A DNA stretch of 35,484 nucleotides, taken from Asanoa siamensis. GTDB taxonomy: Bacteria > Actinomycetota > Actinomycetes > Mycobacteriales > Micromonosporaceae. The stretch covers positions 1 through 35,484 of the forward strand of contig NZ_BONE01000081.1 of the NCBI RefSeq assembly GCF_016862555.1, written 5' to 3'. Both the position numbers and the translations under genes were made by a program. Below, piece by piece: positions 4,513-25,067 of this stretch (the first letter of the stretch is position 1; each line of letters starts with the position of its first letter). The notes below the pieces were generated by a model. That model was not told where the DNA came from. It searched no databases and saw nothing but the letters and a program-made list of their open reading frames with translations.

Positions 4513-5142
4513 GTGAGCTGGAGTTCGTACGCGTCCTTCGTGGTCTTCGCCCTCGTCCTGATCGCCATCCCCGGCGCCGACTTCGCCGTCACCGTGCGCA
4601 GCACCCTCGTCGGTGGCCGCCGGCAGGGCCGGTGGAGCTCGGTCGGCATCGCGTCGTCCAATGTGGTGCAGGGCCTGCTCGCCGTGGCCGGTCTCGGCGC
4701 GATCGTCGTGCACGTCGAGCCGCTGTTCCAGGCCATCAAGTGGGCCGGCATCGGCTACCTGCTCTACCTCGCGGCGCAGTCGTTCCGCTCCGCCTGGCGC
4801 GGCGACTACGCCGCGCTGGACGACGCGCAGGGCAGCCGCGCCGCCACCGCCTGGGCCGGCTGGCGGCAAGGTTTCCTGTCCAACATCACCAACCCGAAGG
4901 TGCTGGTCTTCTACCTCGCGGTGCTGCCGCAGTTCCTCGGGCCCGGCACCCCGGTCGCGGTGCTGCTCGTGTTCGCGCTGACCCACGCCGCGCTCGGGCT
5001 GCTCTGGTCGCTGCTCGTCGTCGCCGCCATGCACCGGGTGCGCCGGGTGCTGCGCCGCCGCCGGGTCCGCCGCGCCCTGGACGCCGTGACCGGCGCCGCC
5101 CTGGCCGCCTTCGGCGCCCGGCTGGCTGCCGAGAGCGCCTGA
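4513..5142 (+). CDS. LysE family translocator
   Basis: A 209-residue multi-spanning membrane protein with the LysE family landmarks: an N-terminal IPGADFAVTVR segment, GGRRQG after the first helix, YLLYLAAQSFR in the middle and TNPKVLVFYLAVLPQF. Six membrane segments are expected. It is a paralogue of the exporter at 1534-2166, with which it shares length and motif order, but it is clearly diverged. Substrate is unknown; the family exports amino acids, homoserine lactones and similar compounds. Start GTG 4513 is chosen for the -10 box 7 nt upstream. A hairpin with a T-rich tail follows at 5198-5235. Confidence 0.9.
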   Translation: MSWSSYASFVVFALVLIAIPGADFAVTVRSTLVGGRRQGRWSSVGIASSNVVQGLLAVAGLGAIVVHVEPLFQAIKWAGIGYLLYLAAQSFRSAWRGDYAALDDAQGSRAATAWAGWRQGFLSNITNPKVLVFYLAVLPQFLGPGTPVAVLLVFALTHAALGLLWSLLVVAAMHRVRRVLRRRRVRRALDAVTGAALAAFGARLAAESA

Positions 5143-5197: not shown

Positions 5198-5235
5198 CGG
5201 ACGGATCCTAACGATCAGGATCGTCCGTACTTTTG
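5198..5235 (+). terminator. Probable intrinsic terminator after the LysE gene
   Basis: CGGACGGATCCT (5198-5209) can pair with AGGATCGTCCG (5217-5227) with one bulged base and a 7-nt loop. A TTTT run follows at 5231-5234. It separates the exporter transcript from the promoter of the copper/sugar-oxidation cluster. Confidence 0.5.
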
Positions 5236-5254
5236 CTTGCTTGGATAAAAGTCT

Positions 5255-5304: not shown

Positions 5305-5469
5305 CACCCACACACCACGTTGTTTCATCGATGTAAACGGCGCGTGAGCAGTGCACCTCGCTCGCCGTTCCACGCCCACGTCCCCGACTCCCCAGGCATC
5401 GCCAACCCGTCCCAGCGGGCCGGCGAGGTCTGCCTTGCCATGTCATCCGTCGGTCGAACTGCGGAAGGT

Positions 5470-8400
5470 ATGCCGGACATGCCCAATTCTGTCGTGCCAC
5501 GAGGCACGCGAAGGCGCCTGCTCAGCAGGCTCGGACACGGCCGGTTCGCCCGGCCGTCCGCGGCGTTCGCCGCCGTAACCGTCATGTTGGCCAGCGTCCT
5601 GCTGGCCGGGGTCCTGTCGGGCACGCGCCCGGCCGCGGCCGAGCCACCCGGCGGGGCGCAGCAACTCCAGGCCCAGGTGCTCACCTGGACGGCCGGGGAC
5701 AGCTTCCAGGCGTACGCGTCGGTGCCGAGCAGCGCCGTCGCCGGCCCGACCACCATCGTCTTCGAGAACAGCGCGGCGACCGGCAACACCACCGGGATGC
5801 AGCACACGCTGACGTTCGACACGGGCGACCCGCGCTACAACCGGGACGTCAACCTCAACCTGATCGCGGACCCGTCCGACGCCAACGGCGGCCGCTGGAC
5901 CGCGGACGTCACGCTGACCGCGGGCACCTACCGCTACTTCTGCGCGATCCCCGGCCACGGCCAGATGACCGGCCTGCTGGTGGTCACGGGTGGCGGCGGC
6001 GACACCACGGCCCCCACCGTCAACGCGCAGGTCGCGGGCGAGCGGGACGGCGACGGCAACTACATCGGCGCCGCGACCGTGACGGTCAACGCCACCGACG
6101 CCGACTCCGGCGTGGCCCGGGTCGAGTACGCGCTCGACGAGGGTCCGTTCGGCACCTACTCGGCCCCGGTCACGGTCAACAGCCCCGGCGCGCACACCGT
6201 GCGCTACCGGGCGACCGACGTCGCGGGCAACACCTCCGAGATCGGCTCGACCCAGTTCACCGTGGTCGAGCCGCAGAACCCGGACACCACCGCGCCGACC
6301 GTGACCGCGGCCGTCTCCGGCGACCAGGACGAGAACGGCGCCTACGTGGGCTCCGCGACCGTCACGGTCACCGCCACCGACACCGAGTCGGGCGTCGAGA
6401 GCGTCGAGTACTCGCTGGACGGCGGCGCCTTCGCGGCCTACACCGCGCCGGTCACCGTCAACACCACCGGCAGCCACACCGTGCAGTTCCGGGCCACCGA
6501 CGAGGCGGGCAACACCTCCAGCCCGCAGTCGGTCGCCTTCACCGTCGTCGACACCCCGGACCCGGACAACACCGCGCCCGAGGTGACCGCCACGGTCGCC
6601 GGCGAGCGCAACGGCGACGGTGCCTACGTTGGCGCCGCCACCGTCACGGTCGCCGCCACCGACGCGGGCTCCGGCGTCGCGACGGTGGAATACTCGCTCG
6701 ACGGCGCGCCGTACGCCGCCTACACCGCGCCCGTCGCCGTCAACCAGCCGGGGGCGCACACCCTGGCCGCCCGCGCCACCGACGAGGCGGGCAACACCTC
6801 GGCGCCGAGGACGGTCGAGTTCACCGTCGTCGACGCGCAGGGCCCCGACACCACCGCGCCGACCGTGACGGCGGCCGTCGCCGGTGACCAGAACGAGCAG
6901 GGTGCCTACCTCGGCAGCGCCACGGTCACCGTCACCGCCGACGACACGGAGTCCGGTGTGGACACCGTGGAGTACGCGGTCGACGGCGGGGCCTGGGCCC
7001 CGTACACCGCACCCGTCACCGTCACCGCGACCGGCGCGCACACGGTCACCTTCCGGGCGACCGACGAGGCCGGCAACACCTCGACGCCGGGCAGCGTGCA
7101 GTTCACTGTCGTGGACGCGCCGAACCCCGACAACACCGCGCCCACGGCCAACGCGACCGTGGCGGGCAACAAGGACAACACCGGTGCCTACATCGGCGCG
7201 GCGACGGTCACCGTGACCGCCTCCGACGCCGACTCGGGCGTGGCCACCGTGGAGTACTCGCTGGACGGCGCCCCGTACGCGGCCTACACCGCGCCGGTCT
7301 CCGTCAACCAGCCGGGCGCGCACACCGTGAGCTACCGGGCGACCGACCGGGCCGGCAACACGTCGACCCCGGCGTCGGTCTCGTTCAGCGTGGTGGCGGC
7401 GTCCAACGACACCACCCCGCCGACCGTCAACGCCGCCATCAGCGGCCAGCTCAACAGCGGCTGGGCGTACGTGGGCAGCGCGACGGTGACGCTCACGGCC
7501 GGCGACAGCGGCTCGGGCCTGATGCGCGTCGAGTACGCGCTGAACGGCAGCGGCTACCTGGTCTACGGCGCGCCCGTCACGGTCAACACCCCGGGCACGC
7601 ACACCTTCACCTACCGGGCCACCGACCGGGCCGGCAACGTCTCCAGCACCGCCTCGGCCACGTTCACCGTGGTGGAGAGCGGTCCGCCGGCGCCGTCCTG
7701 CCGGGTCGCCGACAACCGGACCACGGTCTGGATGGGCACGCTCGACACGGGCGTGGCCAACCGGGTCGTCGAGGGCGGCTGCTCGATCAACGACCTGGTC
7801 CTCGACGAGTCCCCGTGGGCCGGCACCGCCGAGTTCGTCGCCCACGTCACGACCCTGGCCGACCGCTGGCACCAGCGCTCGCTGATCCCCCTCAAGGACC
7901 GCAACGGCCTCGTCCGCGGCGCCCGCGAGAGCAACGTCGGCAAGGCCGAGTCGGTGCAGGGCTACGCGCCGCTGCTCGACAACAAGGCCACCTCGTTCCG
8001 GCTCTGGGAGCAGGTCGGCGGTGGTGGCTTCCGCCGCAACGCCGACGGCTCGATCACCAGCAAGCAGGAGGGCGGCCTGGGCATGCTCTGGTTCCCGGTC
8101 CGCACCTACGGCGACTTCTCGCTGAAGCTCCAGTGGCGGGACGACGCCCCCGGCACCGGGCGCGCCAACAGCGGCGTGTTCGTCCGCTTCCCGCAGGTGC
8201 ACCAGCACCCGCAGGAGCCCCGGCCGGAGTGGGTGGCCATCAAGTACGGCCACGAGCTGCAGATCTTCGACAGCCCGACCGGTGACGCGTACAAGAGCGG
8301 CTCGGTGTACGGCTTCGACCGGGTCGACCTGGCCGACGCGGGCGTGCGGGACAAGGGCGTCTGGAACGACTACGAGATCCGCGTGGTCGGCCAGCACTAC

Positions 8401-8592
8401 TCGATCTTCCGCAACGGCAAGCTGATCAACCAGTTCACCAACGGGCCCGGCCAGGTCTTCGACCCGCCGCGGGCCGACGACCCGGGCACCGACGGGCGCC
8501 AGCACGCGGAGGGCTACATCGGCCTCCAGAACCACGGCGCCACGGACACGGTCAGCTTCCGCAACATCCGCATCGCCCCGCTGACCCCGTAA
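5470..8592 (+). CDS. Secreted cupredoxin / Ig-like repeat / DUF1080 protein
   Basis: About 1040 residues. A long Sec-type signal segment (residues ~28-57) ends near RPAAAE. A plastocyanin-like domain follows (~60-175) with a complete type 1 copper site: His in GMQHTL, then Cys, His and Met in FCAIPGHGQM. Six tandem Ig-like repeats of ~95 residues (~179-737) follow, each starting near DTTAPTV and ending near DEAGNTS...FTVV, of the kind labelled OmpL47-type or chitobiase-C-terminal-like. A Cys-containing linker (TGVANR...GGCSINDL) leads to a C-terminal DUF1080 domain (PF06439, 3-keto-disaccharide hydrolase/LamG-like, ~843-1040). ATG 5470 is used; ATG 5479 is also possible, being 10 nt after GGAAGG. 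It is followed 16 nt later by the multicopper oxidase. It likely acts outside the cell as an electron carrier joined to a sugar-binding or hydrolysing domain. Confidence 0.88.
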   Translation: MPDMPNSVVPRGTRRRLLSRLGHGRFARPSAAFAAVTVMLASVLLAGVLSGTRPAAAEPPGGAQQLQAQVLTWTAGDSFQAYASVPSSAVAGPTTIVFENSAATGNTTGMQHTLTFDTGDPRYNRDVNLNLIADPSDANGGRWTADVTLTAGTYRYFCAIPGHGQMTGLLVVTGGGGDTTAPTVNAQVAGERDGDGNYIGAATVTVNATDADSGVARVEYALDEGPFGTYSAPVTVNSPGAHTVRYRATDVAGNTSEIGSTQFTVVEPQNPDTTAPTVTAAVSGDQDENGAYVGSATVTVTATDTESGVESVEYSLDGGAFAAYTAPVTVNTTGSHTVQFRATDEAGNTSSPQSVAFTVVDTPDPDNTAPEVTATVAGERNGDGAYVGAATVTVAATDAGSGVATVEYSLDGAPYAAYTAPVAVNQPGAHTLAARATDEAGNTSAPRTVEFTVVDAQGPDTTAPTVTAAVAGDQNEQGAYLGSATVTVTADDTESGVDTVEYAVDGGAWAPYTAPVTVTATGAHTVTFRATDEAGNTSTPGSVQFTVVDAPNPDNTAPTANATVAGNKDNTGAYIGAATVTVTASDADSGVATVEYSLDGAPYAAYTAPVSVNQPGAHTVSYRATDRAGNTSTPASVSFSVVAASNDTTPPTVNAAISGQLNSGWAYVGSATVTLTAGDSGSGLMRVEYALNGSGYLVYGAPVTVNTPGTHTFTYRATDRAGNVSSTASATFTVVESGPPAPSCRVADNRTTVWMGTLDTGVANRVVEGGCSINDLVLDESPWAGTAEFVAHVTTLADRWHQRSLIPLKDRNGLVRGARESNVGKAESVQGYAPLLDNKATSFRLWEQVGGGGFRRNADGSITSKQEGGLGMLWFPVRTYGDFSLKLQWRDDAPGTGRANSGVFVRFPQVHQHPQEPRPEWVAIKYGHELQIFDSPTGDAYKSGSVYGFDRVDLADAGVRDKGVWNDYEIRVVGQHYSIFRNGKLINQFTNGPGQVFDPPRADDPGTDGRQHAEGYIGLQNHGATDTVSFRNIRIAPLTP
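6004..7679 (+). repeat. Six tandem ~285-bp coding repeats
   Basis: Six in-frame copies of an Ig-like module, each about 95 codons, with highly similar start (GAC ACC AC(G/C) GCn CC) and end (GGCAACACCTC) segments. Copies 3 and 5 are especially close to each other, as are copies 2 and 4, which suggests duplication of a two-repeat unit. This is a protein-domain repeat, not a CRISPR or mobile repeat. Confidence 0.8.
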
Positions 8593-8608
8593 GCGAAGGA
8601 CAGGACCA

Positions 8609-9790
8609 GTGGACAAGGAATCCTCACGCCCGGGGTGGGTGGGAGCGCCACGGCTGTGGGCCGTCGCGATCCTCGCCGTGACCCTGGTCGGCGCGGGAGC
8701 CCTCCGGTTCGGCGGCCAGCAGGCCGCCGCGCCGGGGGCGCCCGCCGCGGCTCCGGCGGCGGTCAGCGCCGAGCGGGCGGCCCTGGCGGCCCTCGCACCG
8801 GGCGACCGCCCGGACGGCTGCATCCAGCCGGACCGGCGCATCCAGCTCTACGCGGTCGAGCTGCCCAAGGACGGCACCCAGATCCGGCTCGGCTACGGCC
8901 TGACCCCGGAGACGGCGTCGTACCCGGGGCCGCTGATCGAGATGATCGAGGGGGAGTGCCTCGCGATCACCCTGCACAACCAGGTGCCGGAGGCGACCCT
9001 GGCCGCGCTGCGCCAGGACCCGAGCCTGCCGCTCGGCGTCTCGCTGCACACCCACGGCGTCAAGTACACGCCGACCTCCGACGGCACCATCCACACCGAC
9101 TCGTGGGTGCCGCCGGGCGGCCAGTACACCTACATCTGGTACGCCAAGCCGCGCAACGCGACGGCCGGCTCGCAGGGCAGCGCCGGCTACTGGTGGTACC
9201 ACGACCACATGGTCGGCACCTCGCACGGCACGCGGGGCCTGAGCTCCGGCCTGTTCGGCGGGCTGATCGTGCGCCGGCAGGGTGACGTCCGGCCGAACCG
9301 GACCTACGTGACCGCGTTCGGTGACCTGCAGTCGATCAACCTGCGGCGCGGCGCCGCGACCGACACCTGCGACCCGGTCAACCCGGTGCCGGGGCCGACA
9401 TGCATCGTCGCCAAGAAGGGCGAGCGGGTCGAGTTCCTGGTCATCGGCATGGGCAACGACATGCACACCTTCCACCTGCACGGGCACTCCTGGGCGGACA
9501 CCCGCACAGGCGCGCTCGACGGCACCAACAAGGCGCTGGTCGACTCGGTGCCGGTCATCGACAACAAGACGCTCGGCCCGGGCGACACGTTCGGGGTGCA
9601 GATCGTCGCCGGTGACTCGGTCGGCTCGGGCAACTGGATGCTGCACTGCCACATGCAGTTCCACTCCGACCAGGGCATGGCCACGATGATGCACGTCCTC
9701 AACCCCGACGGCACCCTCGCGCCGCACAGCGCGGACCACGCGCCGGCCGCGGCCGCGGGTGCGCCGGCGGCGCACGGAGGCCACCAGTGA
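8609..9790 (+). CDS. Two-domain multicopper oxidase (small-laccase-like), secreted
   Basis: A 393-residue protein with an N-terminal hydrophobic segment (residues ~14-34, signal or anchor) and all four copper-ligand signatures: HTHG (~146), WWYHDHM (~197), HTFHLHGH (~285) and HCHMQFHSDQGM (~346). The last carries the His-Cys-His/Met ligands of the type 1 site. The size and spacing fit a two-domain oxidase of the trimeric small-laccase kind, which couples one-electron oxidation of a donor to reduction of O2 to water. The C-terminal tail is His-rich (ending HGGHQ) and may bind copper. GTG 8609 follows an AGGACAGGA stretch. The stop overlaps an upstream GTG in frame with the next gene. Its neighbours suggest the cupredoxin domain upstream may be its electron donor; this is inference. 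Confidence 0.92.
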   Translation: MDKESSRPGWVGAPRLWAVAILAVTLVGAGALRFGGQQAAAPGAPAAAPAAVSAERAALAALAPGDRPDGCIQPDRRIQLYAVELPKDGTQIRLGYGLTPETASYPGPLIEMIEGECLAITLHNQVPEATLAALRQDPSLPLGVSLHTHGVKYTPTSDGTIHTDSWVPPGGQYTYIWYAKPRNATAGSQGSAGYWWYHDHMVGTSHGTRGLSSGLFGGLIVRRQGDVRPNRTYVTAFGDLQSINLRRGAATDTCDPVNPVPGPTCIVAKKGERVEFLVIGMGNDMHTFHLHGHSWADTRTGALDGTNKALVDSVPVIDNKTLGPGDTFGVQIVAGDSVGSGNWMLHCHMQFHSDQGMATMMHVLNPDGTLAPHSADHAPAAAAGAPAAHGGHQ

Positions 9791-9825
9791 CCACAGGATT
9801 CCGTGACCCTCATGAAGGAGCAGGA

Positions 9826-12800
9826 ATGGCCCATCGAAAGCGGCCGAGGCTGCGCCGCGCGATAGCGCTGGCGTCGGCGGCCGTCTTGACGCTCGGCATC
9901 ATGACCGGCCCGGGATCCCCGCCGGCTGCCGCCGCGGCACCGACCTGGGGCGCCGGCGCGGTCAACGTGCTGGTCTTCCACGGCCCCGTGGACCAGCAGG
10001 ACGACCCGGTCAACCGCGCCGTCGCCGCCGTGCGCAAGCTCGGCACCGAGAACGGCTTCACCGTCCGGGTGTCGTCCAACCCGGCCGACTTCAACAAGGA
10101 CAACCTCGCGAAGTACCGCGGCGTGGTGTTCCTGTCCGCCAACGGCGTCACGCTCAACGACAGCCAGGAGGCGGCCTTCCAGGCGTACGTCAAGGGTGGC
10201 GGCGGCTTCGTCGGCGTCCACGACGCGGCCCGGGCGCAGCCCGGCTCGGAGTGGTTCACCGGCCTGATCGGCAGCCGGCCGGCGCCCAGCCTGCCCAACG
10301 CCGAGAAGGTCGTGGAGCTCGCGGCCAGCGCCCAGAACACGCCGAACGAGGGCGTGGCCCAGCTCTTCGACGGCCGCACGGGCACCAAGTGGCTTGCCTT
10401 CGCCCGCACCGCCTGGGTGCAGGGCAAGCTCGGCGCGCCGACGGTGATCAACCGGTACGCGCTGACCTCGGCCAACGACTTCGCCGGCCGGGACCCGCGG
10501 AGCTGGAAGCTGCAGGGCTCCAACGACGGCCAGAGCTGGACCGACCTCGACACCCGTACCAATGAGGTGTTCGACCAGCGGTTCCAGACCCGGCAGTTCT
10601 CCTTCACCAACACGACCGCCTACCAGTGGTATCGGCTGGACATCACGGCCAACAGCGGCGAGTCGGCCACCCAGCTCGCCGAGATCTTCCTGATCGGCCC
10701 GGACGCCGGCCCGCCGCCGGAAGCCAACGTGCAGCAGGCGACGGTCAGCGTCACCGACCGCCAGCACCCGGCCAACAAGGGCCTGCCGCTCACCTGGACC
10801 CGGTCGGACCAGTGGATCAACTGGGACCCGAACCCGACCGGCAACGTGCACACGATCGCCCAGGTGCAGGAGCACACCTACAACGCCGGCCTGTCCGGCA
10901 ACGGCGCGTTCCACCCGATCTCCTGGTGCCGCGACTACGACGGCGGCCGGTCCTTCTACACGGGCATGGGGCGCACCGACGCGAGCTACACGACCGACAC
11001 CAAGTTCCTGGGCCACCTGCTGGGCGCGATCCAGTGGACCACCGGCCTCGTGCGCGGTGACTGCCAGGCGACCATCGCGTCGAACTACAAGGTCGAGCGG
11101 CTGACCGCGGTCAACCAGCCCGGCCAGCTCGACCAGATCGGCGAGCCGCACGGCCTGACCATCGGGCCCGACGGCACGGTGTTCTACATCGGCAAGGCGG
11201 CCTGCCCGAGCGGCCCGGTCGTCGACTGGGCCAACCCCAACGTCGGCCTCGGCTGCGGCACGATCCACTCCTGGGACCCGCGTACCAAGGCGGTCAAGCT
11301 CCTCACCACGCTGAAGGTGATGGGCAACCGGGGCAGCGGCAGCGAGCTCGTCAAGAACGAGGAAGGCCTGGTCGGCATCACGCTCGACCCGAAGTTCGCC
11401 GAGAACGGCTGGGTCTACGTCTACTGGATGCCGCACGAGTCGATCGACCGCGAGAAGCGGATCGGCCAGCGGACCGTCTCGCGGTTCACCTACGACAAGG
11501 CCGCGCAGACGATCGACCAGGCGACCCGCAAGGACCTGCTGCACTGGGACACGCAGATCCACAGCTGCTGCCACGCCGGTGGCGGCATGACGTTCGACGA
11601 GTCCGGCAACCTCTACATCGGTTCCGGTGACAGCAACTCGTCCGGCGGCTCCGACGGCTACTCCGGCAACAACTGGACCCAGGAGTTCGCGGGTGTGTCC
11701 TTCCAGGACGCGCGCCGTACCTCGGGCAACACGAACGACCTGAACGGCAAGATCATCCGGATCCACCCCGAGGACGACGGCACCTACACGATCCCCGACG
11801 GCAACCTGTTCACCGGCCACGAGGGCGGTGGCGGCAAGGCCCGCCCGGAGATCTACGTGATGGGCGTGCGCAACATCGCCCGGATCGCCTGGGACCCGGT
11901 CAACGACTGGCTCACCGCCGGTTGGGTCGGCCCCGACGCCGGCGCTCCCAGCCCGGAGCTCGGCCCGGCCAAGTACGAGACGGCGACCATCATCACGCAG
12001 GCCGGCAACCACGGGTGGCCCTATTGCATGGGCAACCGGCAGCCGTACCGCGACCGGAGCAACACCGACGCGACCCAGCTGACCGGCTGGTACGACTGCG
12101 ACAACCCGAAGAACGAGTCGCCGCGCAACACCGGTCTGGTCAACCTGCCGCCGATCCGCGACAACATGATCTGGTACTCGCCGCAGGGCGGTGGCCCGGT
12201 CTTCCCGAAGCGCACCGACGGCAGCGGGCTGCCCACCTACGTGCAGTCCGAGTCCACCTACACCCAGCCCTACCTCTCGGGCGGTGGACAGGCCATCATG
12301 GACGGTCCGACCTACCAGCGCGAGAACGTCGACGTCAACAGCGGTGTGGCGTGGCCGGCGTACTGGGACAACAAGTGGTTCATCGGTGACCAGTCCAACG
12401 GCAACAACCGGATCGCCGTGACGGTGAACCCGGAGACGGCCCGCCAGGCCGGCCCCCCGGCGTTCGCCGAGGACCTGCGGCGGATCATCCCGCCGGGCAC
12501 CAACGCACAGACCCAGCTGCAGTCCTGGATGGATGCCAAGTTCGGCCCGGACGGCGCGCTGTACATGCTGGACTACGCCGGCGGCTTCTTCAGCCTGCAC
12601 AACAACCAGAAGCTGATCCGGATCACGTACACCGGCGGTCAGGCGACCCCGAACCCGAGCCTGGCCACGGCGAAGTCGGCGACCCCGACCACGCCGCGCA
12701 CCATCGAGTTCAACAGCAACCGGGTCGGCGGTGTCGCCTGGGAGTGGGACTTCGGCGACAACACCAAGGGCTCCACGGCGCCGCACCCCAAGCACACATA

Positions 12801-13797
12801 CAAGCGGTACGGCACCTTCACCGCCAAGCTGAAGACGACGTACGCCGACGGTGAGGTCGTCGAGTCGAGCATCCCGGTCACCGCCGGGTGTGTCGCGGCC
12901 GACGCCCGACCGACGGTCTACTTCCTGGAGACCGACAGCGGCGTGGCCAACCGGCAGGTCGGCGGCGGCTGCTCGATCAACGACCTGATCGACGACGAGA
13001 CGACGTGGCCCAACCGCGGTGCCTTCGCCGACCACCTGGAAACGGTGATCACGGAGCTCACCACGGCCCACGTCATCGACAACCAGGAGGCCAACACGCT
13101 GCGGCGGACCGGCACCCAGTCGCCGATCGGCGCCACCAACGGCTACCAGACCATCTTCGACGGTTCCGCGTACTCGTTGGCGGGCTGGCGGCAGGCGCCC
13201 AGCGGCAACTTCGGCCTCCGGCCGGACGGGTCGATCCGCAGCAGCGGCGGCCTGGGGATGCTGTGGTACGCGGACCAGGCGTTCGCGGACTACTCGATCA
13301 AGTTGCAGTTCAAGGACATCTCGCCGGACGCCGTCCGGGCAAACAGCGGTGTGTTCGTCCGGTTCCCGGACCCGCGCACCCCGCTGGAGCAGCGCCCGGC
13401 GGGTTCCTGCGGGACGGTCGGATCGGCACGCTCGTCGCAGGCCTGGGTCGCGATCTTCTGCGGTCACGAGATCCAGATCTACGACGGTGCCACGGGCGAG
13501 CCGCAGAAGACCGGCTCCGTCTACAACTTCGACCCGAACACGCTGGCCCAGGCCGGCGCGACCGACAAGGGTGTCTGGAACGACTACGAGATCCGCGTCG
13601 TCGGCCAGCACTACACGATGATCCGCAACGGCGTGGTGATCAACGAGTTCGACAACACGCCGGGCAAGAACTCGTCGCGCGCCGGTGACCCGCCGACCGA
13701 CATGCGGCAGTTCCTCAGCGGTTTCGTCGGGTTGCAGAACCACGGCAACAGCGACGTGATCGAGATCCGGAACGTGCGGGTCCGCAGCTACAACTGA
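9826..13797 (+). CDS. Secreted ThuA / discoidin / glucose-sorbosone dehydrogenase-like / PKD / DUF1080 fusion
   Basis: About 1323 residues. A signal peptide ends near PAAAAAP (~38). ThuA-like fold, first half (~46-148, to GGGFVGVHDA). An inserted F5/8-type C (discoidin) domain (~150-300, LFDGRTGTKW...SWKLQGSNDG). ThuA second half (~303-410, WCRDYDGGRSFYTGMG). A glucose/sorbosone-dehydrogenase-like beta-propeller (~412-938, GEPHGLTIGPDG, HAGGGMTFDESGNLYIGSGD). A PKD domain (~940-1018, WEWDFGDN). The Cys-containing SGVANR...GGCSINDL linker, and a C-terminal DUF1080 domain (~1105-1323) closely related to that of the 5470-8592 gene. ATG 9826 is chosen for GAAGGAG 5 nt upstream; GTG 9787 overlaps the oxidase stop but would put 13 residues ahead of the signal peptide. 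Propeller relatives oxidise sugars with PQQ; the cofactor here is unproven. Confidence 0.9.
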   Translation: MAHRKRPRLRRAIALASAAVLTLGIMTGPGSPPAAAAAPTWGAGAVNVLVFHGPVDQQDDPVNRAVAAVRKLGTENGFTVRVSSNPADFNKDNLAKYRGVVFLSANGVTLNDSQEAAFQAYVKGGGGFVGVHDAARAQPGSEWFTGLIGSRPAPSLPNAEKVVELAASAQNTPNEGVAQLFDGRTGTKWLAFARTAWVQGKLGAPTVINRYALTSANDFAGRDPRSWKLQGSNDGQSWTDLDTRTNEVFDQRFQTRQFSFTNTTAYQWYRLDITANSGESATQLAEIFLIGPDAGPPPEANVQQATVSVTDRQHPANKGLPLTWTRSDQWINWDPNPTGNVHTIAQVQEHTYNAGLSGNGAFHPISWCRDYDGGRSFYTGMGRTDASYTTDTKFLGHLLGAIQWTTGLVRGDCQATIASNYKVERLTAVNQPGQLDQIGEPHGLTIGPDGTVFYIGKAACPSGPVVDWANPNVGLGCGTIHSWDPRTKAVKLLTTLKVMGNRGSGSELVKNEEGLVGITLDPKFAENGWVYVYWMPHESIDREKRIGQRTVSRFTYDKAAQTIDQATRKDLLHWDTQIHSCCHAGGGMTFDESGNLYIGSGDSNSSGGSDGYSGNNWTQEFAGVSFQDARRTSGNTNDLNGKIIRIHPEDDGTYTIPDGNLFTGHEGGGGKARPEIYVMGVRNIARIAWDPVNDWLTAGWVGPDAGAPSPELGPAKYETATIITQAGNHGWPYCMGNRQPYRDRSNTDATQLTGWYDCDNPKNESPRNTGLVNLPPIRDNMIWYSPQGGGPVFPKRTDGSGLPTYVQSESTYTQPYLSGGGQAIMDGPTYQRENVDVNSGVAWPAYWDNKWFIGDQSNGNNRIAVTVNPETARQAGPPAFAEDLRRIIPPGTNAQTQLQSWMDAKFGPDGALYMLDYAGGFFSLHNNQKLIRITYTGGQATPNPSLATAKSATPTTPRTIEFNSNRVGGVAWEWDFGDNTKGSTAPHPKHTYKRYGTFTAKLKTTYADGEVVESSIPVTAGCVAADARPTVYFLETDSGVANRQVGGGCSINDLIDDETTWPNRGAFADHLETVITELTTAHVIDNQEANTLRRTGTQSPIGATNGYQTIFDGSAYSLAGWRQAPSGNFGLRPDGSIRSSGGLGMLWYADQAFADYSIKLQFKDISPDAVRANSGVFVRFPDPRTPLEQRPAGSCGTVGSARSSQAWVAIFCGHEIQIYDGATGEPQKTGSVYNFDPNTLAQAGATDKGVWNDYEIRVVGQHYTMIRNGVVINEFDNTPGKNSSRAGDPPTDMRQFLSGFVGLQNHGNSDVIEIRNVRVRSYN

Positions 13798-18507: not shown

Positions 18508-18586
18508 GGAACGGTCCGTTGTTAACGCGATGCGTTAACAACGGACCGTTCCTCTGCGGAAACCGTTAAGAACGGACCGTTCCTTA
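18505..18586. repeat. TAA-hairpin element with three copies of one motif
   Basis: A perfect 22-bp inverted repeat (18507-18528 and 18532-18553, 3-nt loop) is followed by a third, slightly shorter copy (18565-18586). Each copy has the core AACGG(T/A)CCGTT followed or preceded by GTTAA. The first arm begins with the TAA stop of the arylsulfotransferase gene. Read on the minus strand, the third copy begins with the TAA stop of the GH39 gene. It is probably a bidirectional terminator, and perhaps a member of a dispersed repeat family. Confidence 0.75.
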
Positions 18587-20437
18587 GCCGACCGGCGTCA
18601 GCTCGATGTAGGCGATGGCCGGGTTGGGCAGGTCGACCGTCACATCGACCACGCCGTCAGCGGGCTCGACCGTGGTCACCGGCTCGGCCTCGGGCAGGTG
18701 GTCCGCCGCGGCCAGGTCCGCCCACTGGGCGTCCGTCGGCCACGCGCCGCCGCCCATCGCCTGCCACCGGCCGGCCACGTTGCCGTGGTCGGCGTCGACC
18801 CGCCACCGGCGGACCTCGTAGCGGCGGCCGGGCAGGCCCGCGACGCGGACCGTCACCGACCGGTCGAGCACCTTGTCGCCGTCCCGCTTGGCGTGGTCGA
18901 GCGTGCCGTTCCAGACCAGCGCGCCGACCGTGCCGTCGGCGCCCCGGGCCGTCCACGACTCGACCAGGCTGTCGGCGCCGTCGCCGGAGAGCCGGGCCGG
19001 CAGCGCCGTGTCGCCGAGGCGCTGGGCCAGCCAGAGCGCCCAGAACTTCGGCTTGGCCAGGTTGCCGACCGTGAGCAGGCCGAAGCCGCCGTGCAGGAAG
19101 CGCGGCGGGCGGCCCAGCTCCTCGAAGTGGTCGGAGGCCACCCACGGCGCCAGCGACTCGATCCGGCCGGCCGCCGAACGCATCCCGCGGAGCAGGAACG
19201 TGGCGGCGAAGACGGTGTCGTTGATCTCGTTGCCGTGGGTCGCGGTGACGCCCCATTCGGTCCACCACTGCGGCAGATCCGCCCGGCCGCGCGCGGCGGT
19301 GATGCCCCGCAGATCCAGCGGCGGGCTGCCGTAGATGTGGGTCGAGACGAAGTCGACCGGGGCGTCGACGTCGAGCTGCCGGTCGACCCAGCCGACCGCG
19401 GCCGTGGCCGGCCCGCCGACCCGCAGGCCCGGGTCGACGTCCTTGACCGCCCGCGCGCTGATCTCGTAGAGCCGCCAGTATTCACCCGGCGTGCCCGACC
19501 AGAACACCGACAGGTTGGCCTCGTTCCACACCTCGAACGCCCAGTTGTCCCGCACCTCGTCGAGGCCGTAGCGGTCGACGAGGTGGGCGACGAGCGCGCG
19601 GACCAGGTCGCCCCAGCGGTCCCAGTCCTTCGGCGGCGAGATGATGCCGCGGTACGTGAACACGGTGCGGGACGGGTCGCTCGCCAGGTCGCGGGGCATG
19701 AAGCCCAGCTCGACGATCGGCCGCATGCCCAGCGCCAGCACGGTGTCGTAGACCCGGTCGATGCCCGTCCAGTCGTGGACCGGCCGGCCATCGACCTCGC
19801 GGTAGACGCCGAGGTCGTCGCAGAGGATCCCGTGCGCCCGCACGGTCTCCACCCCGAGCTGCTCGTGGGTGCGGGCCAGGGCGTCGCGCAGCTCCGGCCC
19901 GATCTCGCGGCCGCCGGTGTGGTCGGTCTCCAGCAGGTGGGACAGGTGCTCGGAGCCCACCATGAAGCGCCACGGCCGGTGCAGCGGGCCGGCGTCACCG
20001 GCGGCGTCGACCTCGAGCAGCAGCGGTGCCACCGCCTCGGGGCCGCCGAGCGCCGCGCCCCGCACGGGCGTGCACAGTGGACCCATCGCGGTCACGGTGG
20101 CCAGGGGCGCGACGGCGTACCAGTATTCGCGTTCCGGTTCGACGGTGGTGTCCGCGTAGGGTCCGTGCGGCACGGCGAGGACGTCGCCCCCGCCGTGGTC
20201 CACGACGGTGAACGGGCCCGTGGCGCTGGTGGCGCGGTGCACGGCGTACCCGATGGCCCCCTCGACCGGTTCCCAGCGGAGAGTGACCTGGCCGCGGCCG
20301 GGGACCGCGACGAGCCCCGCCGGCGCGGGCAGGTCGGCCGCGTCGGGCTCGCCGGGTGCGCGATCCTGCGCCCCGCCGCTGCCCATCATCGCGACCCACT
20401 GTGCCCGCGCCTGCGCGGCGATGTCGCCGACCGTCAT
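18584..20437 (-). CDS. GH39-like glycoside hydrolase with N-terminal fibronectin type III-like domain
   Basis: A 617-residue protein. An N-terminal segment (~1-35) is followed by a fibronectin-III-like domain (~38-130, VTLRWEPVEGAIGYAVHRA). A clan-A (beta/alpha)8 domain follows, resembling GH39 beta-xylosidase/iduronidase enzymes, then a C-terminal beta-sandwich. The candidate acid/base is Glu306 in VWNEANL and the nucleophile Glu394 in WWTEWG. No signal peptide is visible, so it is probably cytosolic and would act on imported oligosaccharides, although FnIII domains are more usual in secreted enzymes. Its ATG overlaps the stop of the upstream hydrolase gene (ATGA). It is the last gene of the minus-strand sugar operon and ends in the TAA-hairpin element. 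Confidence 0.82.
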   Translation of the reverse strand: MTVGDIAAQARAQWVAMMGSGGAQDRAPGEPDAADLPAPAGLVAVPGRGQVTLRWEPVEGAIGYAVHRATSATGPFTVVDHGGGDVLAVPHGPYADTTVEPEREYWYAVAPLATVTAMGPLCTPVRGAALGGPEAVAPLLLEVDAAGDAGPLHRPWRFMVGSEHLSHLLETDHTGGREIGPELRDALARTHEQLGVETVRAHGILCDDLGVYREVDGRPVHDWTGIDRVYDTVLALGMRPIVELGFMPRDLASDPSRTVFTYRGIISPPKDWDRWGDLVRALVAHLVDRYGLDEVRDNWAFEVWNEANLSVFWSGTPGEYWRLYEISARAVKDVDPGLRVGGPATAAVGWVDRQLDVDAPVDFVSTHIYGSPPLDLRGITAARGRADLPQWWTEWGVTATHGNEINDTVFAATFLLRGMRSAAGRIESLAPWVASDHFEELGRPPRFLHGGFGLLTVGNLAKPKFWALWLAQRLGDTALPARLSGDGADSLVESWTARGADGTVGALVWNGTLDHAKRDGDKVLDRSVTVRVAGLPGRRYEVRRWRVDADHGNVAGRWQAMGGGAWPTDAQWADLAAADHLPEAEPVTTVEPADGVVDVTVDLPNPAIAYIELTPVG

Positions 20438-21984
20438 GCGCCCGCTCCACCAAGCTGGGGGAGGTGCTGGTCGGCCGGGATGTTGAACGTCTCCTGCCCG
20501 ATCAGCGGGCGGATCCGCTGCTCGAAGCGCTTGTCCACGAATGACTTCCTTATCAGGTCGTTGGCGAGCTCGTTGCCGAGCGCACCCATGATCATTGCCT
20601 GGTCGAGCGAGAGGTACCGCTTGGCCACGGTGCCGCTGCCGACCGCCACGGCGTCGTAGAACCCGCCGGGGCCGTACGCGTCGAAGTTGGCCTTGAGGCC
20701 CCGCAGGTTGTCGACGACCGGGCCCTTGGCGTACGGCAGCGCGAGGAACGCCGCGTGCGGTGTCACCACGCCGTCGCCGTAGTCCGGCTCGGCGCCGGCC
20801 GGGCGGCAGTCACCGAAGCCCGCGTCGTACCGCGACTGCTCCACGTCGGAGGGATAGCCGTTGGTGTCCATGCCCATCGCGTCGACGCCCCACACCGCGT
20901 AGCCGCCGCTCGGGTTGCTGGCGGGGGAGAAGCCCCAGTAGCCGTAGCCGGCGTCGTGCAGGCCGTGCTCGATCTGCCCGGCCACGGTCGCCTTGTGGTT
21001 GCGGCCCCAGCTGTTGGGCGCCCACCGCTCCTCAGGCACGAACAGGTCCGGCATCAGCGCCTCGAACATGTCGCCGCCCCAGCTCGGCACGAACCGGATC
21101 CCGCGGTACTCGTACGCGCCCTCGTAGACCGGCACGCCCTCGTAGGTCGTGTCGAAGCCGACGGGCTGCATCTCGTGCCAGTTCCAGTCGCAGGTGGCCG
21201 GCAGCGTGCGCATGGTGTTGTAGTAGGCCTCGGCCGGGATCTGCCCGGCGCCGATGCCGAGGTAGGTCGCGATCCGCGGCTCGGTCACGGTGATGTCGTA
21301 GTGGTTGCAGGTGAACCAGGTGCCGTCGCGCTGCACGGAGCACTGCGGCGGCGGTGGCGGCTCGGCGTCCCAGAAACCACCGGCGATCAGGCCGCTGGCG
21401 CCGAAGGGCGTGGTCGCGGCGGGGTTGTAGTAGAAGCCGAAGTTCATCTTGGACAGGATCCGGTCGGCCTTGCCGCGCAGCTCCGGCACGGCACCCTTGA
21501 CGACCCGCAGCGCCGCGGCGAGCCAGCCGTTGTCCACACTCGACAGGAACGGGTAGATCGTGCTGCCGTCCTCGGGCCAGACCCGGACGACGGAGGCGTC
21601 CCGCGGGTCGTACCAGTTGAAGTACATGCCGGACTGCTCGTGGTGGTCCATCCGGGCCAGGGTGTCCAGCGTCTGGGAGATCCGGTCCCGGGCCTCCTTG
21701 CGGGAGATGAAGCCCAGCTCCCGGGCGACCACCGCCGACCACATGTAGCCGCCGATGTTGGTCGGGGAGGTGTAGGTCGAGTCGGTTTTCAGGTCACCGC
21801 TGACGTTGTCGGCGACCAGGCCGGTCCGGGGGTCGGTCATGGCGACCATCGACCGCCAGGTGTCCTTGGCGTAGGCGGTCAGCGTGCGGTCGGCGCCCTT
21901 GGTGTCCGGCGCGGCCGCGGCGGCTGATCCGCCGCCCGCCAGCACCAGCCCGAGCGCGACGACGGGAGCGAGGATGCGTCGCAT
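20434..21984 (-). CDS. Secreted glycoamylase-like (GH144-type) glycoside hydrolase
   Basis: A 516-residue protein with a signal peptide (MRRILAPVVALGLVLAGG, cleavage near AAAAAP). Its (alpha/alpha)6 domain follows the glycoamylase-like pattern (PF10091): TSPTNIGGYMWSAVVARELGFIS, WYDPRD, SSVDNGWLAAALRV, FVPSWGGDMFEALMPDL, WGFSPASNPSGGYAVWGVDAMG and VVTPHAAFLALPYA. The family includes GH144 endo-beta-1,2-glucanases and cyclic-glucan-active enzymes, so beta-1,2-glucan is a reasonable but unproven substrate. ATG 21984 has AAGGAG a few nt upstream and begins 8 nt after the MalG-like stop. Secretion suggests it releases the oligosaccharides taken up by the transporter encoded just upstream. Confidence 0.85.
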   Translation of the reverse strand: MRRILAPVVALGLVLAGGGSAAAAAPDTKGADRTLTAYAKDTWRSMVAMTDPRTGLVADNVSGDLKTDSTYTSPTNIGGYMWSAVVARELGFISRKEARDRISQTLDTLARMDHHEQSGMYFNWYDPRDASVVRVWPEDGSTIYPFLSSVDNGWLAAALRVVKGAVPELRGKADRILSKMNFGFYYNPAATTPFGASGLIAGGFWDAEPPPPPQCSVQRDGTWFTCNHYDITVTEPRIATYLGIGAGQIPAEAYYNTMRTLPATCDWNWHEMQPVGFDTTYEGVPVYEGAYEYRGIRFVPSWGGDMFEALMPDLFVPEERWAPNSWGRNHKATVAGQIEHGLHDAGYGYWGFSPASNPSGGYAVWGVDAMGMDTNGYPSDVEQSRYDAGFGDCRPAGAEPDYGDGVVTPHAAFLALPYAKGPVVDNLRGLKANFDAYGPGGFYDAVAVGSGTVAKRYLSLDQAMIMGALGNELANDLIRKSFVDKRFEQRIRPLIGQETFNIPADQHLPQLGGAGA

Positions 21985-21992
21985 GAGTCTCC

Positions 21993-22841
21993 TTACTTGA
22001 GTCCGGTTGTCGCGATGCCACGCATGAAGTGCCGCTGGAGGAGCAGGAACACGATCAGCACCGGCAGCACCACCACGACGGCGCCGGCCAGCAGCAGGCC
22101 GAAGTCGGTGCGGTTCTGCCCGATGCTGTAGAGCGCCAGCGCGACCGGCAGCGTGTACTTGTCCTCCGTGGTGGCGACGACGAGGGGCCAGAGGAAGTTG
22201 TTCCAGGACGCGAGGAACGTGAGGATCCCGAGTGTGGCCAGCGCCGGCCGGCACAGCGGCAGGACGACGCGCCAGAAGATCCGGAACTCGCCGGCACCGT
22301 CGACCCGGGCGGCCTCGATCAGGTCGTCGGGGATCGACTGGAGGAACTGGCGCATCAGGAACACGCCGAACGGGCCGACGAGGAACGGCAGGATCAGCCC
22401 CGCGTACGTGTTGGTCAGGCCCATGTTGCTGACCAGCACGAACTGCGGGACGAAGGTGACCATGCCGGGCACCATGAGCATGCCGAGCACGGCCAGGAAC
22501 AGCACCCGCTTGCCGGGGTAGCGCAGCTTCGCGAGCGCGTAGCCCACCAGCGAGCAGAACAGCAGGTTGCCGACCGTCACCGCGAGGGCCACCAGGGCCG
22601 AGTTGAAGAAGAACAGCGGGAAGTCCAGGCGGGAGAACAGGTCGCGGAAGTTCTCCAGCGTGAACGTCTCGGGCCACCAGGTCGGCGGCACGCTGCGGAT
22701 CTCGCCCTCGGGCTTGAACGACGAGAGCGCCATCCAGACGAACGGCCCCACGACCGCCAGCAGGCTGATGCTCAGGATCGTGTAGAGCACCGCCTTCGCG
22801 ACGCGGTCGCGGCCGCGTACGCCTCGATCCATTGTGGTCAT
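21993..22841 (-). CDS. Carbohydrate ABC transporter permease (MalG-like)
   Basis: A 282-residue inner-membrane permease with six predicted helices and the cytoplasmic EAA loop (EAARVDGAGEFRIFWRVVLPL) that contacts the ATPase. It belongs to the MalG half of CUT1 sugar transporters. The start overlaps the stop of the MalF-like gene (ATGA at 22838-22841); an in-frame ATG at 22832 is an alternative. Confidence 0.95.
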   Translation of the reverse strand: MTTMDRGVRGRDRVAKAVLYTILSISLLAVVGPFVWMALSSFKPEGEIRSVPPTWWPETFTLENFRDLFSRLDFPLFFFNSALVALAVTVGNLLFCSLVGYALAKLRYPGKRVLFLAVLGMLMVPGMVTFVPQFVLVSNMGLTNTYAGLILPFLVGPFGVFLMRQFLQSIPDDLIEAARVDGAGEFRIFWRVVLPLCRPALATLGILTFLASWNNFLWPLVVATTEDKYTLPVALALYSIGQNRTDFGLLLAGAVVVVLPVLIVFLLLQRHFMRGIATTGLK

Positions 22842-23800
22842 TTGCGTTCTCCGAGGAAGCGGAACTGGATGACCGACAGCGCCACGATCGCGACGAAGAG
22901 CACGTAGCTGGCCGCGGCCGCGTAGCCGTAGTTGCCGAACCCGAACTGGTTGTAGATGTGGTAGCTCACCGACAGCGTCGAGGAGAGCGGGCCGCCCTGG
23001 GTCATCACGAACGGCTCCTCGAAGAACTGCAGGTAGCCGATGCCGGTGACCACGCCACCGAAGAGCAGCGTCGGGCGCAGCATGGGCAGCGTCACGTGCC
23101 GGAACTGCTGCCAGCGGCTGGCGCCGTCGAGCGTGGCCGCCTCGTAGAGGTCACCCGGGATGGCCTGCAGGCCGGCCAGGAAGATCACCATGAGGAAGCC
23201 GAAGTTGCGCCAGGTCGCCATGACGATCAGCGAGGGCAGGGCGAGCTTCGTGTCGAACAGCCAGCTCGGCCCGTCGATCCCGACCACGCCCAGCAGGCCG
23301 TTGACCAGGCCCACCTCGGGGTCGAGCAGGAACCGCCAGACGACCGCGACGGCCACGATGCTCGTCACCACGGGCAGGTAGAAGCCGACCCGGAACAGCG
23401 CCCGGAAGCGCAGGAGGCCCGAGTTGAGCGCCGTCGCGGCGGCCAGCGCGACCACGATGGTCAGCGGCACGCCGACGACCACGAACACCAGCGTGTTGAC
23501 CGACGAGCGCAGGAACAGGTCGTCGGAGAAGAGCCGGGTGTAGTTGTCCAGGCCCACGAAGTTGACCGCGAACGGGTTGCGCAGGTCGGTCGAGCGCAGG
23601 TCGGTGAAGCTCATCACCAGCGAGACCACGACCGGGACGGCCATGAACACCAGGAAGAGCACGGTGAAGGGCGCGGAGAAGGCCCAGCCGGTCAGCGCCC
23701 GGCGCAGACGCTGCCGCCGCTGGACCGACCCGGCGGGCCGGTCGGAGGTCTTCCCTTCGACCGACCGCGCCGGAGCCGTCGCCACGGGGGCGCCGGCCAT
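22838..23800 (-). CDS. Carbohydrate ABC transporter permease (MalF-like)
   Basis: A 320-residue permease of the MalF half of CUT1 sugar ABC transporters. It has a cytoplasmic N-terminus rich in Arg/Gln, about six helices, the long periplasm-facing loop region and an EAA loop (YEAATLDGASRWQQFRHVTLPML). It lies 1 nt after the stop of the binding-protein gene and overlaps the MalG-like gene by 4 bp. No ATPase gene is present in the operon; in streptomycetes such transporters use a shared MsiK-type ATPase encoded elsewhere, which is likely here too. Confidence 0.95.
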   Translation of the reverse strand: MAGAPVATAPARSVEGKTSDRPAGSVQRRQRLRRALTGWAFSAPFTVLFLVFMAVPVVVSLVMSFTDLRSTDLRNPFAVNFVGLDNYTRLFSDDLFLRSSVNTLVFVVVGVPLTIVVALAAATALNSGLLRFRALFRVGFYLPVVTSIVAVAVVWRFLLDPEVGLVNGLLGVVGIDGPSWLFDTKLALPSLIVMATWRNFGFLMVIFLAGLQAIPGDLYEAATLDGASRWQQFRHVTLPMLRPTLLFGGVVTGIGYLQFFEEPFVMTQGGPLSSTLSVSYHIYNQFGFGNYGYAAAASYVLFVAIVALSVIQFRFLGERK

Positions 23801-23801
23801 C

Positions 23802-25067
23802 TCAGCTCCCGGTTCCGATGCCGGACGCCTTCTCCTGGATGGCCTTCGCCACCGCGGCCGGGTCCACGTCGGACTTGCACAGCTTCTCGACCTCGAGGTC
23901 GAACGACGCCGCCATCTGCTCCCAGGTCGGGATCGCGGGCGGAGCCTTGGCGTCCTCGAGCTGCTTGCCGAACACCGCGAGGTACGGGTCTCCGGAGAGG
24001 GTGCTGTCGTCCCAGGCGGACTGCACGGACGGCAGGTCCTTGACCTCCTGGTACCACTTCACCTGCACGTCGGGCTTGCTCAGCCACTGCACGAACTTCC
24101 AGCCGGCGTCGCGGTTCTTCGCGTCCTTGAAGACGGCCAGGTTGCTGCCGCCGATGAACGAGGTCGCCGACTTCTTCATCGGCATCTGGGCGATCGCCCA
24201 CTTGTCGGCGAACGCGGCGCCGCCCTTCTCCTGGAGCAGGCCGATGTGCCACGGCCCGGAGATGAACGCGCCGATCTTGCCGCTGACGAAGTCGGGCTCG
24301 AGCGCGCCCTCGGGCAGGTCGGTGCCGGACAGGCCCTGCTTGAAGAACGACTGGTAGTAGCCCAGGGCCTCGGTCATCTCCGGCGAGTCGAAGCTGACCT
24401 TGTCGGCGGACACGCCCTCGGCGCCGTTGGACCAGGCGAACGGCATCACGGACTGCCAGCTACCGGTCTTGCCGGGCTGCAGGTGGAAGCCCTCGCGTAC
24501 GCCGTTGGCCTTCATCTTGGTGGCCATCGCCGTCAGGTCGTCCCAGGTCTTGGGGCCCTCGGGGAAGCCAACCGCGGTGGCCAGGTCCTTGCGGTAGAAG
24601 ATGCCGCGGGTCTCGACGTACCAGGGCACGCCGTAGGAGGAGCCGTCGACGACCGTCGTGTCCCAGGCGCCGGGGAAGAACTCCTCCTTCTTGATCAGGT
24701 CCGGCGGCGTCGGGTCGAGCGCGCCGGTCTTGGCGAACTCGCCCTGCCAGGTGGTGCCGATCATCGACACGTCGGGGGTCTGCTTGGCCGCGATCGCGCT
24801 GGCGATCTTCTGGTGCGCCGCGTCCCAGGGCACCGGCGTCACGTTGACCTTGGCGTCGGGGTTCTCCGTCATGAACGCCTTGGCGAACTCACCGAGCTTC
24901 TCGCCCTCGGTGCCCATCGCCCAGACCGTGATCTCGCCGCTGGCCTTGCCTTCCGCGACGGCCTTCGCGTCGTCCTGGCCGCCGCCCGAGTCGCGACCGC
25001 AACCGGTCAGCGCCACGGACAGGGCTAACGCGGCCGCCGCCACGGTCGCGAGCCTGCTCCTTCTCAT
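23802..25067 (-). CDS. Sugar ABC transporter substrate-binding lipoprotein
   Basis: A 421-residue extracellular solute-binding protein of the CUT1 class (family 1). It has a lipoprotein signal with lipobox LTGC (Cys ~23) and the usual course ITVWAMGTEGEKL, then TPDVSMIGTTWQGEFAKTGAL, GVPWYVETRGIFYRKDL and a C-terminal lobe with SFIGGSNLAVFK. It captures an oligosaccharide for the two permeases that follow. ATG 25067 overlaps the LacI stop (ATGA) and has GGAGG 6 nt upstream. Substrate is not readable; the associated GH144-type and GH39-type enzymes suggest a beta-glucan or xylan-type oligosaccharide. Confidence 0.95.
   Translation of the reverse strand: MRRSRLATVAAAALALSVALTGCGRDSGGGQDDAKAVAEGKASGEITVWAMGTEGEKLGEFAKAFMTENPDAKVNVTPVPWDAAHQKIASAIAAKQTPDVSMIGTTWQGEFAKTGALDPTPPDLIKKEEFFPGAWDTTVVDGSSYGVPWYVETRGIFYRKDLATAVGFPEGPKTWDDLTAMATKMKANGVREGFHLQPGKTGSWQSVMPFAWSNGAEGVSADKVSFDSPEMTEALGYYQSFFKQGLSGTDLPEGALEPDFVSGKIGAFISGPWHIGLLQEKGGAAFADKWAIAQMPMKKSATSFIGGSNLAVFKDAKNRDAGWKFVQWLSKPDVQVKWYQEVKDLPSVQSAWDDSTLSGDPYLAVFGKQLEDAKAPPAIPTWEQMAASFDLEVEKLCKSDVDPAAVAKAIQEKASGIGTGS

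Follow-up and report, generated by a model that had tools for sequence, protein, structure and literature searches.

Type B two-domain multicopper oxidases (MCOs), typified by the small laccase SLAC (SCO6712) and its kin, are treated in the literature as stand-alone phenol oxidases, and the physiological roles of two-domain MCOs have been called poorly understood (PMC13151041). Here and below, what we say of published work is limited to the portions of the sources available to us. Among described systems for sugar oxidation outside the cytoplasm, that of Caulobacter pairs a membrane-bound dehydrogenase, LacABC, with a proposed hydrolase of 3-ketolactose, DUF1080 proteins being genetically tied to lactose use in that organism (PMC9007349). 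The fungal pyrroloquinoline quinone (PQQ)-dependent sugar (pyranose) dehydrogenase, CAZy family AA12, is a secreted propeller with a built-in redox partner (a cytochrome domain) and a carbohydrate-binding domain, and several of its PQQ ligands are missing (PMC4133262). The available text of these two sources describes no cupredoxin or laccase with LacABC and no laccase partner for AA12. Here we analyze a stretch of 35,484 bases (the window) of contig NZ_BONE01000081.1 from Asanoa siamensis (GCF_016862555.1, genome of 8.78 Mb), in which a two-domain MCO with the fold and copper motifs of SLAC (P2) is a member of a conserved module, flanked by a blue copper protein (P1) and by a propeller protein fused to ThuA and DUF1080 (P3). 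The set appears to be a variant of extracytoplasmic sugar-oxidation systems that is built on copper carriers. We keep it apart from PQQ sugar dehydrogenase systems because their defining PQQ anchors, when looked for in P3, were not found.

The three genes lie consecutively on the forward strand (5440 or 5470 to 13797), with a third-codon GC of 0.95-0.96 across all three frames and with the stop codon of P2 overlapping the GTG start of P3. A hydrophobic N-terminal segment in each protein suggests that all three are exported. An earlier note, made from these letters alone, had read the locus as three consecutive genes with named domains, two of the three proteins carrying DUF1080; searches of Pfam, NCBIfam and PDB sequences bore this out, and the three-gene set is real. 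The closest P3 from a named genome, among the matches listed, is that of Asanoa iriomotensis (95% identical).

P1 (5440..8592, starting at 5440 or 5470) is a predicted exported protein that combines a type-1 copper (cupredoxin) domain (5650..6000), six OmpL47-type repeats (NCBIfam), a linker and a DUF1080 domain of the 3-keto-disaccharide hydrolase family (7966..8574; PF06439, E 1.3e-32). The isolated copper domain matched Copper-bind (PF00127, plastocyanin/azurin type) at E 1.1e-4, and this family was not listed at E 0.001 when whole-length P1 was put to Pfam; the cupredoxin class is supported by PF00127 together with a model and the His/Cys/His/Met ligands. Consistent with the intact site claimed earlier, the columns of H121, C167, H172 and M175 (numbering of window:5443-8589) are invariant in a 14-row alignment. 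P2 (8609..9790), a two-domain MCO of small-laccase type, matches the two-domain laccases 9ix9, 5o3k and 3cg8 in the PDB with E down to 8.6e-69. It is about 42-45% identical to the SLAC type and belongs to a separate two-domain lineage. Residues H147, H149, H198, H200, H286, H289, H291, H346, C347, H348, H352 and M357 are likewise invariant among 14 rows, and with the Pfam, PDB and alignment matches they uphold the full ligand set attributed to P2 in the earlier note. The P1 and P2 residues are those that we take, from their families, to be the copper ligands.

P3 (9787..13797, starting at GTG 9787 or at ATG 9826, the latter preceded by AAGGAG) is predicted to be exported. It consists of ThuA (9937..11040, E 3.8e-57), into which an F5/8C domain is inserted (about 10321-10683), a glucose/sorbosone dehydrogenase (GSDH)-type propeller (11062..12669, E 4.1e-21), a PKD domain, a linker and DUF1080 (13141..13785, E 5.4e-31). 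DUF1080 scored 113.8 bits on P1 and 108.5 bits on P3 against a Pfam cut-off of 26.8. The linker of about 80 residues ahead of DUF1080 is common to both proteins; a FIMAH identity was rejected for it, Pfam FIMAH being found in two of six more distant relatives and not in the window's linker. The F5/8C and PKD domains and this linker, like the upstream dyad described below, are additions to what the earlier note had listed. The propeller has both a PF07995 match and the fold of PQQ sugar dehydrogenases. Its H596 (11572-11574), the equivalent of the catalytic His, stands beside Cys594-Cys595, and H596, R695 and N696 align with His144, Arg228 and Asn229 of soluble glucose dehydrogenase (sGDH), motifs that are present in all 80 loci described below. 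The sGDH numbering and the roles of these residues, as of Lys377, Arg406 and Arg408 below, are those we presume for that enzyme.

The earlier note had proposed co-occurrence of the three architectures as a test. A pattern scan of genome contigs with a P3 alignment confirmed at least 573 relatives, and we used the best 80, chosen on P3 alone, which span 29 genera. In 79 of the 80 loci a module MCO was found no more than about 3 kb from P3, and in 78 the cluster has a P1-type cupredoxin (77 by script, and L097 by hand). Both partners are missing at L089 and the cupredoxin alone at L094, where the remainder of P1 is present; both loci lie at contig ends, and since these are cut contigs, the counts among observable loci are 79/79 for the laccase and 78/78 for the cupredoxin. 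All 79 module MCOs bear the type B signature, i.e., two cupredoxin domains, four His motifs and an HCH...H...M type-1 site in domain 2, and the copper ligands were intact in all copies read. Neither partner was found near any of 18 more distant ThuA/GSDH or DUF1080 loci (0/18 versus 79/79 and 78/78), and we therefore reject a chance neighborhood. The spread over 29 genera likewise rejects conservation among close relatives only. Thus, the linkage is far stronger than the earlier note could have known. In a family-level set of 13 loci, comprising each genome's best P3 match with the fragmented G304 left out, both partners were present in 12, including all five same-genus loci. An additional laccase, 71% identical to P2, directly follows P3 in one same-genus genome (L073:13592-14716).

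The linkage persists even though the gene order is not fixed. By script, the arrangements were MCO-P3-P1 in 55 loci, P1-MCO-P3 in 11 and P1 divergent from MCO-P3 in seven; rarer were MCO divergent from P3-P1 (three), P3-P1-MCO (one), loci with P1 unscored (two) and P3 alone (one). A quick tree of 45 P3 rows shows at least seven changes of gene order, L097 not being counted. The oxidase itself also varies. In a tree with six non-module MCOs as outgroup, 45 module MCOs split into two lineages, one of the window type (Asanoa, Plantactinospora, Phytohabitans, two Micromonospora and L082), whose nearest non-module MCOs are L167 and L168, and one of SLAC/Actinoplanes/Amycolatopsis type, nearest to the remaining four outgroup MCOs. 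A single clade for all module MCOs was rejected by the approximately unbiased (AU) test (p-AU 2.8e-5), and the P3s of the holders of window-type MCOs, L082 included, do not form one clade (p-AU 5.5e-55). It seems, from these trees, that some of the family exchanged the laccase for another two-domain lineage with the slot still filled; what the slot appears to require is thus a type of oxidase and not one particular gene. The domains, the complete copper ligands and the linkage of the partners are kept through rearrangement and laccase replacement.

The module extends to SLAC itself. In the genus that we designated g8, the module oxidase, represented by the L034 copy, has matches of E 1e-189 to 1e-196 among small laccases of known structure, including 3cg8 and 4m3h, which we take to be the SLAC of S. 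coelicolor and the laccase of S. sviceus, respectively. From these matches we infer that g8 is Streptomyces and that its module MCO is SLAC or a close relative. Among 121 g8 genomes, surveyed at cut-offs of 1e-80 and 1e-200, such a laccase (57-100% identity with the L034 copy) was present in 72 and the ThuA-GSDH gene in 71; both genes were present in 70 and neither in 48. A Fisher test on these counts takes no account of common descent. All 70 pairs are divergent and on the same contig, with 113-437 bp between match ends, and the cupredoxin gene was found in each of the five g8 genomes checked (L032-L036). In a sample of 296 genomes from the phylum, 14 had a SLAC-type match; six of them, all members of the window's class, make up the set of genomes with the close P3 type, and the remaining eight, from other families, had no P3 match at a cut-off of 1e-50.

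The same partners adjoin the laccase in many soil actinobacteria, which suggests that P1, P2 and P3 act together on extracellular sugars. We propose, with a probability of roughly 0.45, that they form a single extracytoplasmic, copper-dependent module for carbohydrate oxidation and keto-sugar processing, with the laccase as terminal oxidase. P3 would bind a glycan or glycoside through its F5/8C, PKD and DUF1080 domains, and its propeller would oxidize the bound sugar or handle one that is already oxidized. DUF1080 of P1 and/or P3, and probably ThuA too, would process the keto-sugar product, and electrons would reach P2 by way of the type-1 copper of P1, P2 reducing O2 to water. For DUF1080, a 3-ketotrehalose hydrolase and an endo-xanthanase that contain it are also on record (cited in PMC9007349). 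The domain was scored on P3 in 80/80 loci, on 11 of 77 scored P1 proteins and on the cut P1 of L094; in five g8 loci it was recorded on P1 only. The mechanism as a whole, including the sugar substrate, the direction of electron flow and the keto-sugar chemistry that we infer, is plausible but unproven, and PQQ is its weakest link.

Several observations weigh against this proposal, the most serious of which concern P3. Relative to the PQQ aldose sugar dehydrogenases (2ism, 3a9g and 3das, the last from S. coelicolor) and sGDH, the P3 propeller has Met at the position of Arg408 (80/80 loci) and mostly Ser at that of Arg406 (62/80), and none of the aligned P3 rows compared has Lys where sGDH has Lys377; it differs also in the Cys-Cys before the His and in its fused ThuA and DUF1080. 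Met at the Arg408 position is not module-specific, occurring in 16 of 18 alignment rows, distant ones too; the Arg406 equivalent is retained in most of the distant rows. Of four ordinary GSDH proteins of the window genome, used as controls, three retain R-x-R and have Arg in place of Lys377, and the fourth is without R-x-R. None of 15 P3-carrying genomes yielded PqqC, versus seven of 46 others (two of them weak), with an external PQQ supply possible; the PqqE search was non-discriminating, falling below cut-off in the window genome and in all 14 control genomes. The joining of a GSDH-type propeller to ThuA stands as the earlier note had it, but the PQQ-dependent oxidation that it proposed is weakened, and we do not accept PQQ chemistry as settled. 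Because the cationic anchors are lost and PqqC was not found, redox activity of the P3 propeller is unproven. Classical PQQ binding is doubtful, and an altered PQQ site, or another center near the Cys-Cys-His motif, is possible. The loss of anchors and the PqqC result are not decisive, since a fungal relative whose PQQ ligands are lost is still PQQ-dependent (PMC4133262). On the side of the partners, 66 of 77 scored P1 proteins are without DUF1080, and SLAC oxidizes phenols without partners (PMC3918160). One P3, L078 (73% identical), has no partner within 20 kb, with a full set elsewhere in its genome (L082); six related MCOs of other families have no module domain in the surrounding 4-18 kb, some of it cut by contig ends; and, at the cut-offs used, the laccase occurs with no P3 match in two g8 genomes (G408 and G461), the reverse being true of one (G422). 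Finally, distances on the MCO and P3 trees correlate poorly (r 0.24, a value inside the spread of 2000 permutations, which reached 0.37), and simple co-evolution of laccase and P3 is not shown. This low correlation may reflect laccase replacement; weak coupling would give the same.

If the propeller were not a redox enzyme at all, it could be carbohydrate-binding or hydrolytic, as in hedgehog-interacting protein, with DUF1080 and ThuA acting on glycans and the copper proteins cross-linking or hardening an extracellular matrix; this explanation we hold improbable. Phenol or quinone cycling, to our minds an equally improbable account, would have the laccase oxidize plant or humic phenols while the propeller protein uses lignocellulose sugars to reduce quinones or radicals, the cupredoxin serving as a mediator-like reductant or docking part. 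It draws on the oxidation of 12 of 23 phenolic compounds by SLAC (PMC3918160), on the reduction of phenoxy radicals by cellobiose dehydrogenases reported in a review (PMC7036934) and on the fungal PQQ sugar dehydrogenase as a secreted, cellulose-binding relative (PMC4133262). However, the related CjMCO is slow on lignin (PMC13151041), and a type-1 copper protein in 78/78 observable loci would be left unexplained. Copper binding or metal homeostasis has been named as a possible role of two-domain MCOs (PMC13151041), and P2 could accordingly be a cuprous oxidase, P1 a copper store or chaperone, and the linkage to P3 regulatory only. This is very unlikely given that the linkage is with carbohydrate domains, that some members have DUF1080 and the cupredoxin in one chain, and that the recurrent neighbors put to Pfam (TIM barrels, ROK, Gfo/Idh and ABC ATPase) included no copper family, other neighbor clusters being unassigned. 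The copper-dependent carbohydrate module has a bolder form, which we consider unlikely as well: phenol oxidation would not be the main task of actinobacterial two-domain small laccases, which would instead serve as terminal oxidase in a respiratory-like extracellular chain of three proteins. In this chain, a derived propeller with a new, non-classical redox site in the Cys-Cys-His region would oxidize a glycan or glycoside, the blue-copper domain would carry the electrons, and fused DUF1080 and ThuA would cleave the keto-sugar.

Upstream of the operon lies an operator-like dyad of 24 bases (5229..5252, forward strand) of the type ACTTTTG-N10-ATAAAAGT. It is the sole window match at no more than one mismatch (0.01 expected) and the sole match to a stricter pattern in the 8.78-Mb genome. 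We scanned the 600 bases before the first domain match for the consensus ACTTNTG/CANAAGT (at most one mismatch, spacing 3-14) and found the dyad upstream of the first gene in 30/80 loci, compared to 10/800 random windows of the same loci and 3/800 shuffles; the spacing was 10-12 in 28 of the 30. The motif came from an unbiased k-mer count of these same loci, with the pattern fixed after the data were viewed, and the 30/80 count is therefore descriptive only. The first k-mers tried for an operator yielded little, and a scan for sigma-70 promoters and terminators gave none above shuffles. All five divergent laccase/ThuA-GSDH intergenic regions of L032-L036 contain TTTATCCACACTCAGGACAAAGTT, with one base altered in L032 and L036; this Streptomyces-type element is similar, not identical, to the dyad and was missed by the dyad scan.

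Other genes surround the module. A xylose-isomerase-like TIM barrel (PF01261) is near it in 16/80 loci and lies between P1 and the MCO in L090, L091, L094 and L095; the one protein of this family that was read (L142) has a twin-arginine-like N terminus. In 27/80 loci P1 is followed by a protein of about 337 residues whose N terminus is export-like and for which Pfam gave no match (e.g., L161:15477-16490). In the window, a beta-lactamase-family gene shortly before the module lies between two genes for LysE-type translocators (1531-2166 and 4513-5142). Downstream are a protein predicted to be of the arylsulfotransferase family (PF14269; 16990-18507), its N terminus twin-arginine-like, and, on the minus strand, a GH39 glycosidase, a solute-binding protein and a LacI regulator (18584-26119), two open reading frames within that interval resembling ABC permeases by reading. 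Two further clusters of the window genome (L028 on C25 and L029 on C59) combine ThuA, DUF1080-like and GSDH domains with no laccase or cupredoxin; the L028 protein scanned also has PKD, CBM6 and ricin-type lectin domains.

Small laccases are heavily studied, their related solved structures comprising 50 distinct sequences at E up to 1e-50. Our literature search, with most subscription journals outside its coverage, found no report of this laccase/cupredoxin/ThuA-GSDH linkage and no described function for the ThuA-GSDH-DUF1080 architecture. The near-constant pair of genomic partners provides candidate electron donors for the SLAC-type laccases. If the proposal is true, the ThuA-GSDH-DUF1080 architecture would gain a function, and these actinobacteria would possess a copper-based chain for the extracellular oxidation of sugars.

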